This document shows, piece after piece, positions 1,501 to 5,049 of a DNA stretch of 64,000 nt. This DNA is from Acidimicrobiia bacterium (GTDB lineage Bacteria > Acidobacteriota > Vicinamibacteria > Vicinamibacterales > CAVVIG01), in assembly GCA_016871175.1 (NCBI GenBank), contig VFZL01000008.1:62001-126000 (forward strand). The letters are read 5' to 3'. The position numbers and the translations under genes were made by a program. A model generated the notes under the pieces. The model saw nothing but the letters and a program-made list of their open reading frames with translations, had not been told where the DNA came from and did not search any database. Position 1 is the stretch's first letter. Each line of letters opens with the position of its first letter.

Positions 1501-2970
1501 TCAGTTGCAGCTTGCGACCAGATCTTTCAGCAGTTGCTCCCCGGCGATGGGGGTCGTCACGTCGCGCCGCTCGACCTGGCCGGCACGCTCCACCAGAAAC
1601 GGCACGTGACGGACGTCTGTTTCCCTCCCTCCGCCACGGAATCCGTGATCTGAAAAGAACGCTATCGTCGTGTCGGCAAAGCTCTCCTCGCGAGTCATGC
1701 GGTCCACGATCTCGCCGAACACGCGGTCCGCATAGCGCAGCTGATTCGCATAAGCGGAATCCGGTCGTTGTACGAACGGATCCCGAGGCGGCTCGAATCC
1801 TCGCTTCGTGAACACGAACGGGAGATGCGGAATGCTGACGTGCACGAACTGGAACCTTGCACCGGGTTCGCGTGGCCGCGCGAGCTCCCGAAGGGTGGCG
1901 TCTACGATGGCCCGCTGATGCCGGCCGAAGGCCCATCCCTTCAAGATCCCGAGTGGGAACTGGCGCGGCCAGAGAATCACGGTCGTGAGCACCGGATCGA
2001 ACAACGCATCAAATGCCGATCCCGACTGCTGGAGGGTTGCGCGATTGTAGAAACTGAAGGAACGGCACATGTCTGCCGTCGAGCCCACGAGTGAGCAATC
2101 CGCGATGTAGTAGCCGATCACCTCCGGCGACAGCCCGGTGCGGCGTGCGGTTGGCAGCAACGCATCGGGCTGTGTGACGTCCAACACGCTGTGCTGCCCG
2201 TGGTTCAGGGCGAGCAGGACCTGCCGATGCGCAACGACGGCATCGAAGGTGCGCCCGGCGAGGTAGCCAGGAATCGCATCGATTGTCTCGGGGCCCGGCG
2301 AGCGCACGGCGTGGTAGTGCGTGGCCCTCGCGCCGAATCGGCGAAGGTTCGGGAGGTCCGGGCGGATCTCGGATCCCTCGTAAAGATACGCGTACGAGAA
2401 CTCGTCGAACAGGAGGGCCAGCACCGACGCGCAGCCGCTGCTCCCTGTCACCGGCGTGGCGCCCTGCGTGGTGATCGGTGTGGTTGGCCCGAAGACGCTT
2501 CGCGCGAGAGTGAGGGTCACCACGATCGCAATAGGTGACAGGACCCCCCCCAGCAGGCGTTCGAGCCCTGTTCTCATCGCGCGCGGCCAGACGAGGAAGG
2601 CGGTGGCGAGGGATCCGGCCGTGACCGCCACGAGGCCGTAGCGGGCGACCGGCAGCTCCCACAGCCTCCGAAGCGCATCCGCGAAGGGCATCTGACGCGA
2701 GACACCAGCGCCGAACGACGAAAGCGGAAGCAGCGCGACCATCAACAGCGCGATCGTTGCGGCGCGGCCCTCTCGCAGCAACGCCTGACGCAGCGCAATA
2801 CCCAACACCGCGGCCTGCAGCGTCAGCGCGGCAAGCGCCCACCATCCGTGCAACGGCTGCCACTGCAGGTAGTACGGATCGCTTGAGAGCGCGGATGCAA
2901 GCGGATAGAAGAACAGTCCCGAAAGGCCGAATCCGAGCCAGGCGGACCTGAGATCGAGCGGGGCCCTCAT
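1501..2970 (-). CDS. Membrane-bound sulfatase/LTA-synthase-like enzyme
   Basis: The N-terminal ~170 residues form about five hydrophobic segments. They are followed by an alkaline-phosphatase-superfamily domain: the first metal aspartate in LLFDEFSYAY, 'PNLRRF', a probable catalytic Thr in 'GPETIDAIPGYLAGR', a His motif in 'HVSIPHLPF' and the C-terminal metal pair in 'FFSDHGF'. The nucleophile is Thr, as in LTA synthase and phosphoethanolamine transferases; a Cys/Ser sulfatase signature is absent. A role in transferring or removing a group on an envelope polymer or glycolipid is inferred. The start is ATG at 2970, which overlaps the TGA of the upstream methyltransferase (ATGA). It is the third gene of a three-gene operon. 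Confidence 0.75.
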   Translation of the reverse strand: MRAPLDLRSAWLGFGLSGLFFYPLASALSSDPYYLQWQPLHGWWALAALTLQAAVLGIALRQALLREGRAATIALLMVALLPLSSFGAGVSRQMPFADALRRLWELPVARYGLVAVTAGSLATAFLVWPRAMRTGLERLLGGVLSPIAIVVTLTLARSVFGPTTPITTQGATPVTGSSGCASVLALLFDEFSYAYLYEGSEIRPDLPNLRRFGARATHYHAVRSPGPETIDAIPGYLAGRTFDAVVAHRQVLLALNHGQHSVLDVTQPDALLPTARRTGLSPEVIGYYIADCSLVGSTADMCRSFSFYNRATLQQSGSAFDALFDPVLTTVILWPRQFPLGILKGWAFGRHQRAIVDATLRELARPREPGARFQFVHVSIPHLPFVFTKRGFEPPRDPFVQRPDSAYANQLRYADRVFGEIVDRMTREESFADTTIAFFSDHGFRGGGRETDVRHVPFLVERAGQVERRDVTTPIAGEQLLKDLVASCN

Positions 2971-4358
2971 CGGGTGGTCAGACGATAGAGCACGCGTGCC
3001 GACGGCGCGAGCGCTACCCGTTCGTCGATCACGAAGCACCGATCGAGAGCCCGCTCGAAGCCGACTTCGTCGTAGTCATCGAAGACGTCCGCGCGCGAAC
3101 GGAGCAGGCGCTGCACCATCGGATCCGATTTCGGGACGAACTCGACGATCGCGCGTCGGCCAAGGCTCGCCAAGTACCTGGCCAGTTCCGAGAGTGGTAC
3201 GTTGTTGCCAATGGCCAGATGATGGGTGACCGCTAAGGCCAGGATCACGTCCGCTGGACCGCGAGCCGCCAAGGTCATGCGTTCCGCATTAGCCCAGCCG
3301 ATCGCGGGGCTCGGGTTCGTCAGATCGATCACGAGCGGAAGCACGCCGGCCAAGGCCGCATCTTTGCGCACGTCACGATACAGGAGGTCCGCGCACACCG
3401 CGTCAGCGTCGATGGCCACGGTTCGAGCGCCCGAGGCCGCGGCAAGCTTGCTGAAGTGTCCGACGTTCGCGCCCAGATCCCACACGACACGAGCAGCGAG
3501 ACGGTGCAACCACTCGGCGACCACACGCTGCTTGAGCGCGAAGGCGGTGTCGGCGTAGCCCTCGCGCTCCGCGTAGTAGCCCGACCAGGCACTCTGCGTC
3601 GACCAGGAAACCGCACGGGTCGCTCGTTCGAGGCTCCCGGTGAGCGCTTCGAGTCGTGAGGTCGTTGGCGTGCGGGCTGAAGGCGTCGAGTCGCCGGCGC
3701 CCGGCCTCGGGTGCGCTTGCGCCCACGCGGTTTCGGCTCGCGCGTGGAGGTGGACGTGCAAGAGCGGACCAGCACGTAGATAGGTGAAGCGTGGCAACAG
3801 GATCGAGGCCAGCCCCAGCGGGACGCCCTCGATGAACTGTCGACTGAAGCTCACCAGTCGACTGTCACGCGACGCACCGAGCACGAGCGGTGCGTAGAAG
3901 TGCCGACAGAAGTGCCGATAGGCCACCCACGGTCCACCGTCGTATGGGGCGAAGGACAGCGTGTCGATCAGAATCGGTTCACACCCCATGAACTGGACGT
4001 TGAATGCGCTGGCGTCCTTCAGCGCCATCCCGAAGCGCAGCGCGAGCGCCTGAGCCCGGAGCGTCACGAGGGCGGCGTCGCGCAACTGAGACAGGCTCCA
4101 CTCGTACGGATACGAGATCATCAGAATCTGCTCCGGGCGAAGGAAAATGGACGGTTGCGGCCCGCCGGGTTCAGGGCCCAGCTCGTCGTGTGGTACGAGC
4201 AAGCGTTCGCCGATGAGCGCGGCGTACAGTCCTGAAGACATCAGACGCTGGTAGGCCGCGACGCCTGCTGGCCTGACACATCGATGCACGACGCCGTCGC
4301 TCTGAAACACGAGTCCCGCCGGATCTCGGAACGACCCAGCGATCGGCACGTCGAGCAT
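2967..4358 (-). CDS. SAM-dependent methyltransferase, NoeA-like, with kinase-like N-terminus
   Basis: The C-terminal half is a class I methyltransferase: motif I is VVWDLGANVGHFSKLAA, followed by 'TVAIDAD' and a later 'ILALAVTHHLAI'. The N-terminal ~200 residues contain 'LKDASAFNVQF' and 'PILIDTLSF', spaced like the catalytic and metal-binding loops of aminoglycoside/choline-kinase folds; this is my inference. The overall design resembles the nodulation protein NoeA group. The substrate is unknown. A GTG at 4361 directly precedes the preferred ATG at 4358. The gene lies 8 bases after the small YIDPGSGS protein and overlaps the sulfatase-like gene, so the three are probably co-translated. Confidence 0.7.
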   Translation of the reverse strand: MLDVPIAGSFRDPAGLVFQSDGVVHRCVRPAGVAAYQRLMSSGLYAALIGERLLVPHDELGPEPGGPQPSIFLRPEQILMISYPYEWSLSQLRDAALVTLRAQALALRFGMALKDASAFNVQFMGCEPILIDTLSFAPYDGGPWVAYRHFCRHFYAPLVLGASRDSRLVSFSRQFIEGVPLGLASILLPRFTYLRAGPLLHVHLHARAETAWAQAHPRPGAGDSTPSARTPTTSRLEALTGSLERATRAVSWSTQSAWSGYYAEREGYADTAFALKQRVVAEWLHRLAARVVWDLGANVGHFSKLAAASGARTVAIDADAVCADLLYRDVRKDAALAGVLPLVIDLTNPSPAIGWANAERMTLAARGPADVILALAVTHHLAIGNNVPLSELARYLASLGRRAIVEFVPKSDPMVQRLLRSRADVFDDYDEVGFERALDRCFVIDERVALAPSARVLYRLTTR

Positions 4359-4366
4359 CACGTCAC

Positions 4367-4657
4367 TCAGGCCGATGTCGTGGGAGGTTCGTCCTGAACC
4401 TGCACCGGCCCGCGGTCGTGCGCCTCTTCCGCCGCCGGTGCGACCGGGGACGCGAAGCGGCGTCCGACGCGCTTCAACGCGCCGAGGAGACGACGGGATG
4501 TGAGCCCGATGCCAAGAATGGCGGATAGGATGGTTTGGTAGCTGAGGCTACCGGAACCAGGATCGATATACGCCAGGGCCGGCCGCTCAAAGGCCACTAG
4601 AAGGCTCAAGACGCCGAACGCGATGGGTGTGAAGCGGCCACCAGTCGGGATCGTCAC
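4367..4657 (-). CDS. Small membrane protein with AYIDPGSGS motif
   Basis: From the GTG at 4657 the product has 96 residues. A hydrophobic leader (PIAFGVLSLLVAFERPALA) resembles a signal peptide. It is followed directly by the signature AYIDPGSGSLSYQTIL and a second hydrophobic segment (ILSAILGIGL), then a basic stretch and an acidic, proline-rich tail. Proteins of this type commonly precede sulfatase-like and methyltransferase genes in envelope polysaccharide loci (general knowledge); their biochemical role is not established. It is the first gene of the operon. An upstream ATG at 4726 is in frame but adds non-hydrophobic sequence, so the GTG is preferred. Confidence 0.65.
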   Translation of the reverse strand: MTIPTGGRFTPIAFGVLSLLVAFERPALAYIDPGSGSLSYQTILSAILGIGLTSRRLLGALKRVGRRFASPVAPAAEEAHDRGPVQVQDEPPTTSA

Positions 4658-5049
4658 ATGGAAGGACTCGAGTCTCCTCGAGCTCGTACAGGGACTCAAA
4701 CGAGCGCGCATCGATGGCGTGTGCATCGAATCGATCCTCGTGGTTCGAGACGAGAGAATTCACGGCCGCGGCCTTCGTCAGTCCCCCTTCGTCTTCGCCC
4801 TACTGCCGGGGGCGCCCACTCGGCCCAGACCGGTCACGTCCGAGGGGCCAGCGGGCGAGACGGGCCTGCAAGCGTTTCAAAGGTACCGTGTGTACCATGC
4901 AGTCTTGAGGCTTTGCCCATTATTCGCCTCCCCGTTTGGGGTAGACGAGCCTGTCAGGGTCCAGTGTCAATCACGGAACCCACCGGCGACCGTGGCGGGC
5001 TTACCCGGTCCGCCCGGCCTGCACTACGCTATCGCCGATATCCACAACC
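4658..5049. other. Intergenic region, no gene seen
   Basis: About 390 bases between the start of the YIDPGSGS operon (minus) and the recognisable start of the kinase-like pseudogene (plus). It must hold the promoters of both, but I see no convincing -35/-10 pair, operator or RNA gene. The open frames that cross it lack coding character. Confidence 0.4.

Follow-up and report, generated by a model that had tools for sequence, protein, structure and literature searches.

The operon in the window

The window, that is, the whole analysed stretch of 64,000 nucleotides, belongs to a genome of 4.44 Mb. It carries three adjacent genes on the minus strand in the order small, middle, third. The genes and the features within them are as follows:

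4657-4367, minus strand: small YIDPGSGS protein, 96 aa; GTG start at 4657, stop at 4367
4358-2967, minus strand: middle protein, NoeA-family bifunctional protein, 463 aa; ATG at 4358, TGA at 2969-2967
3714..4358, minus strand: kinase-like half of the middle protein, residues about 1-215 (conserved residues, strand/helix order, published family models)
2970..3602, minus strand: class I SAM methyltransferase domain of the middle protein, residues 253-463 (Pfam, predicted fold, motif DLGANVG, then HH379-380)
2970-1501, minus strand: third enzyme, 489 aa, transmembrane/sulfatase-fold; ATG at 2970-2968
2491..2970, minus strand: N-terminal membrane region of the third protein, residues 1-160 (hydropathy; helices in a low-confidence model)
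2284..2286, minus strand: codon of Thr229, putative nucleophile of the third enzyme (alignment of 20 proteins)

The small and middle genes are separated by 8 bases. The middle and third genes overlap as ATGA, with the ATG of the third gene lying over the TGA of the middle gene. The tight arrangement of three genes claimed in the original prediction is thus borne out. Its coordinates for the trio, 2967-4657, are right for the first two genes, but the third gene lies outside them and runs to 1501. The fixed stoichiometry that was read from the tight spacing does not follow from spacing. The small protein has an alternative start at an in-frame ATG at 4726, and for the middle protein GTG 4361 is also possible. 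No polysaccharide genes were found among the window's own neighbours of the trio, and nodL and other nod-like neighbours are absent from the window. Among named genomes, the closest copies of the middle protein are in Acidobacteria MAGs. Elsewhere in the window, a cytidylate-kinase-like match (PF13189, 5293-5751) starts at position 74 of the profile; the listed open reading frame does not contain the N-terminal part and may be mis-started or frameshifted.

The middle protein is related to NoeA

A tblastn comparison of the middle protein with NoeA encoded on the pSymA plasmid of Sinorhizobium meliloti gave 35% identity over 98% of the query (E 1e-60). Judged by this alignment, the middle protein is a full-length collinear homologue of NoeA in both domains. 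The C-terminal half matches Pfam Methyltransf_23 with E 5e-5, which is under the curated cut-off. Structure prediction, proposed earlier as a check, gave a model of the middle protein with pLDDT 76.7 and pTM 0.81. The best match in a structure search with this model (Z 16.5) is to its methyltransferase domain, so that the Pfam match and the predicted fold agree with the NoeA-like methyltransferase that had been predicted. The listed matches all belong to the methyltransferase domain and include no kinase, because this domain filled the list. The SAM-motif residues D294, G296 and G300 are invariant in all 42 full-length relatives.

No Pfam kinase match was found on the N-terminal half. Nevertheless, the kinase-like half that the original prediction had named as a possibility is supported by conserved residues and by published family models. 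R26, LKD115xxxxN120 and ID132 correspond to K72, to D166-N171 of the HRD motif and to D184 of the DFG motif, respectively, and the spacing from LKD115xxxxN120 to ID132 is that of the kinase catalytic loop and the DFG aspartate. In the model, the order of strands and helices before residue 215 is that of kinases. R26, D115, N120 and D132 do not vary in the 42 relatives. Since kinase-type and methyltransferase motifs are kept in 40-42 of the 42 sequences, both active sites are under selection.

The third enzyme is unlikely to be a sulfatase

The third protein matches the Pfam Sulfatase family (PF00884, E 1.7e-9). Its model has a mean pLDDT of 50.5 (alignment of six divergent sequences), and the fold assignment therefore rests on Pfam and motifs. 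Hydropathy segments lie at residues 42-91 and 135-161, and hydrophobic segments are also found in the small protein, so that the first and last genes both encode membrane proteins, as had been supposed. In an alignment of 20 third proteins, position 229 is Thr in 19 and Ser in one. The putative metal ligands D189 and D441 are present in 20/20 and H442 in 19/20; H377 and H382 are also kept. None of the 20 has the sulfatase motif C/S-x-P-x-R at the nucleophile position. Because Thr occupies this position, the metal ligands are kept and CxPxR is absent, the third enzyme is probably no sulfatase, and phospho-chemistry is likely. By alignment, Thr229 with its ligand set shows the pattern that marks phospho-enzymes within the alkaline phosphatase superfamily. 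The original description as sulfatase/LTA-synthase-like holds for the superfamily (PF00884, Thr nucleophile, metal ligands), and its sulfatase part has become unlikely.

We also considered orthology of the third protein to NoeB, the product of the neighbouring gene in S. meliloti, and rejected it beyond the superfamily level. There was no tblastn match at 1e-5, NoeB was not listed at E 10 with the close-family profile of the third protein, and hhalign scored NoeB no better than unrelated sulfatases. Thus, the slot of the third gene is conserved and its sequence is not. This strong sequence variation suggests that the third gene follows the local glycan.

The three genes recur together

We surveyed the neighbourhoods of 42 full-length relatives of the middle protein, as the original prediction had proposed, and the trio turned out to be conserved. 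The small gene lies directly upstream on the same strand in 35 of the 42 loci. The whole trio in order (small gene, NoeA gene, transmembrane sulfatase-fold gene) was found in 27 of 42, although the profiles for the small and third genes had been built from these very loci and may over-count borderline cases. Divergent copies of the small gene escaped the motif scan and were recovered by the profile. Several loci independently back the third gene by Pfam, with no match at L060 and a match under the cut-off at L056; several NoeA loci have no recognisable third gene adjacent. Trio loci include Acidobacteria, a Chitinophagaceae MAG, Singulisphaera, rhizobia and three IMG/VR contigs. No polysaccharide genes were found among the examined neighbours at L052 and L053. 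At two loci (L036, L037) the order is reversed, with a sulfatase-fold gene directly upstream of a NoeA-like gene.

Among 60 related genomes, true copies of the small protein occur in 11 of the 13 with NoeA and in none of the 47 without it, a contrast that shared ancestry makes weaker evidence than a simple Fisher test would imply. The two NoeA genomes without a true copy both have NoeA at the edge of a contig, and in one of the two the fused form alone is present. Close relatives of the third protein were found in 5/60 genomes, all five with NoeA. A chance grouping of three unrelated genes might be argued from the great divergence of the third proteins, the window's own being not detectably orthologous to NoeB, but it is scarcely conceivable given that the survey shows this order repeated across several phyla and on phage-like contigs, together with this co-occurrence.

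Gene linkage ties the small protein to the third enzyme

The small protein consists of an N-terminal hydrophobic segment ending in ALA, the motif AYIDPGSGS, a second hydrophobic stretch and a basic tail. Y30, D32, P33 and Q41 are invariant in the alignment of 20 family members. The leader in the family often ends in AxA right before the Tyr, and one viral member begins with MYLDPG. Because of these two features we infer that the mature protein would start near Tyr30 and have one helix, the motif lying outside and the basic tail inside. No Pfam family was supported for the small protein, and the string YIDPGTGS was not found in a literature search.

In copies of the small gene that lie apart from NoeA, a transmembrane sulfatase-fold gene directly follows (L076, L084). 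In another locus (L080:1438-2553), a type I phosphodiesterase (PF01663) carries a fused AYIGPGAG membrane segment. These pairs and this fusion tie the small protein to the class of the third enzyme, with which, on the evidence of gene linkage, it appears to belong. In addition, one genome carries NoeA alone on one contig and the small gene with a close relative of the third protein on another.

The same trio lies in the nod operon of S. meliloti

On pSymA the order of genes is nodL, a small YLDPGTGS gene, noeA and noeB. The small gene (L055:5751-5969, pSymA of S. meliloti 1021) is unnamed and overlaps noeA. Recent annotations label it as a hypothetical protein, and 61 plasmid records, all of them rhizobial, contain it. 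Only nodL, noeA and noeB are named as genes of this operon (PMC9048898, PMC4053727). Therefore, the same three genes stand in the same order in S. meliloti and in the window, and NoeB is likewise a PF00884 protein; in contrast to S. meliloti, the window has no nodL, and the third protein resembles NoeB only at the superfamily level.

The original prediction knew of no characterised system with this trio. This does not hold, because the trio is that of the nodL-noeA-noeB operon and the family was described in 2022 (PMC9758233). According to the accessible part of this survey, the NoeA family combines a kinase with a methyltransferase and has conserved neighbours; of about two thousand homologues, 94% have the kinase domain joined to a methyltransferase, one conserved neighbour has an alkaline-phosphatase fold, and the neighbour Lani_1193 occurs in 65% of neighbourhoods (PMC9758233). 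As far as that part of the source goes, Lani_1193 is probably the YxDPGxGS small protein. The Lani_1193-1195 region thus resembles the window in its kinase, methyltransferase and alkaline-phosphatase-fold neighbour, whereas the survey starts from predicted Legionella effectors, and its accessible part does not describe a YxDPGxGS protein (PMC9758233). The trio is real, conserved and already partly described.

The trio is also carried on phage-like contigs

A complete trio (L061:4681-8520, with L066 and L067; IMG/VR 3300048852_000112) was found on a 40.8-kb contig. It follows a tail fibre gene (phrog tail families) and tail-like genes, and it is followed by an FkbM-like gene and a glycosyltransferase gene. 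Such positions are typical of surface-converting genes, and a trio with a tail fibre gene on one side and a glycosyltransferase gene on the other agrees with surface modification. Further trios lie on small viral contigs (L060:2567-5530, L059:4835-7227), though IMG/VR viral calls can include host DNA. Beside the trio at L060 there is a gene for an M13 pI/Zot-like morphogenesis ATPase (911-1606), and this contig is possibly inovirus-like. No NoeA match was found among the INPHARED phages.

Discussion

We propose that the operon is a NoeA-type cassette that decorates an envelope (or secreted) glycan or glycolipid in two compartments, the steps being coupled by an adaptor. We give this reading about an even chance (roughly 0.5). 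Gene order, NoeA homology and active-site conservation were observed; beyond them, we infer the following steps. The middle protein would act at the cytoplasmic face of the inner membrane, where its kinase-like half would phosphorylate a sugar or a lipid-linked glycan. The methyltransferase half might then methylate that phosphate or the same sugar. The small YxDPGxGS protein could serve as a membrane adaptor gathering the enzymes. After export, the third enzyme would either attach the phospho-group on the outer face, as a phosphotransferase, or trim it there, as a phosphohydrolase. An envelope glycan or lipid seems the most plausible target, as the original prediction had it. Against this reading speak the examined neighbours of the trio in the window and at L052 and L053, which are not polysaccharide genes, the NoeA loci with no third gene recognised nearby, and the non-significant profile comparison of the kinase half.

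The order of reactions is modelled on WbdD, the chain terminator of the O9a O-antigen of E. coli, which phosphorylates the terminal mannose and then methylates that phosphate (PMC3482155). WbdD likewise unites a kinase and a methyltransferase in one protein that acts on an envelope glycan (PMC3482155). In contrast to the window protein, in which the kinase-like half comes first and the methyltransferase is C-terminal at 253-463, WbdD has the order methyltransferase, kinase, coiled coil. The two match weakly and around the SAM motif only (E 0.39). WbdD may therefore serve as an analogy of how a NoeA protein could work, not as a sign of family membership.

It is possible that the third enzyme is a hydrolase and no transferase, removing a phosphate or phosphodiester placed by NoeA in proof-reading or recycling. 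The alkaline-phosphatase superfamily has both hydrolases and transferases, and the small-protein motif is also fused to a phosphodiesterase at L080. On the other hand, EptA/LtaS-type transferases are laid out with just such a Thr nucleophile and N-terminal membrane region. The third protein shares with EptA/MCR and LTA-synthase types the superfamily, the N-terminal membrane region, the Thr nucleophile and the Asp/His metal ligands, but its best NCBIfam score is about 16 bits against cut-offs of 500-1250. This layout does not separate a hydrolase from a transferase, and we consider the hydrolase reading unlikely, while it survives better than the other alternatives.

Another reading, which we regard as rather improbable, takes the kinase-like half for a binding module without catalysis, in a pathway that does nothing but methylate, with the third enzyme acting apart from it. 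The hhalign comparison of this half with APH and Ser/Thr kinases was not significant (E 0.29), although the register is right and the residues fall on HRD-N and DFG. The equivalent of Lys72 is R26; the accessible part of the family survey also gives Arg in place of the catalytic Lys and no identified ion-pair Glu (PMC9758233). However, the four kinase-type residues are kept in all 42 relatives down to about 35% identity, which would be unusual for a dead site.

noeA and noeB have counted as host-range genes since 1995, and to our knowledge no reaction has been assigned to their products. Later literature still terms their role hypothetical, and no mutant data for noeA or noeB were found in our search of the Nod-factor literature. 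It is usually supposed that they modify the Nod factor, and by extension the cassette would modify a secreted Nod-factor-like signal. In the accessible parts of the sources, noeA and noeB lie with nodL in a flavonoid-induced nod operon (PMC9048898, PMC9758233). However, we found the trio in Acidobacteriota, Bacteroidota and Planctomycetota, as well as on phage-like contigs, where Nod factors are not expected; nor is a nodulation host-range function expected outside rhizobia. The window itself has no nod-like neighbours. The Nod-factor reading is thus very doubtful. Tentatively, we suggest instead that even in rhizobia NoeA and NoeB may spare the Nod factor and be a horizontally spread, sometimes phage-borne kit for envelope glycans, in which the YxDPGxGS adaptor would couple the kinase-methyltransferase to the phosphotransferase.

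New here are the small gene hidden in the nod operon, the pairing of the small protein with the third enzyme and its fusion to a phosphodiesterase, the conserved Thr and the missing CxPxR of the third enzyme, and the carriage by phages. The survey of the trio yields concrete mutants and residues as targets. Through the link to the nod operon and to phospho-enzymes, the anonymous YxDPGxGS proteins gain a function class. A widespread trio with an overlooked small gene shifts the search for the substrate from the Nod factor towards the envelope, and it suggests that these poorly understood host-range genes of alfalfa rhizobia come from a widespread surface-modification kit.
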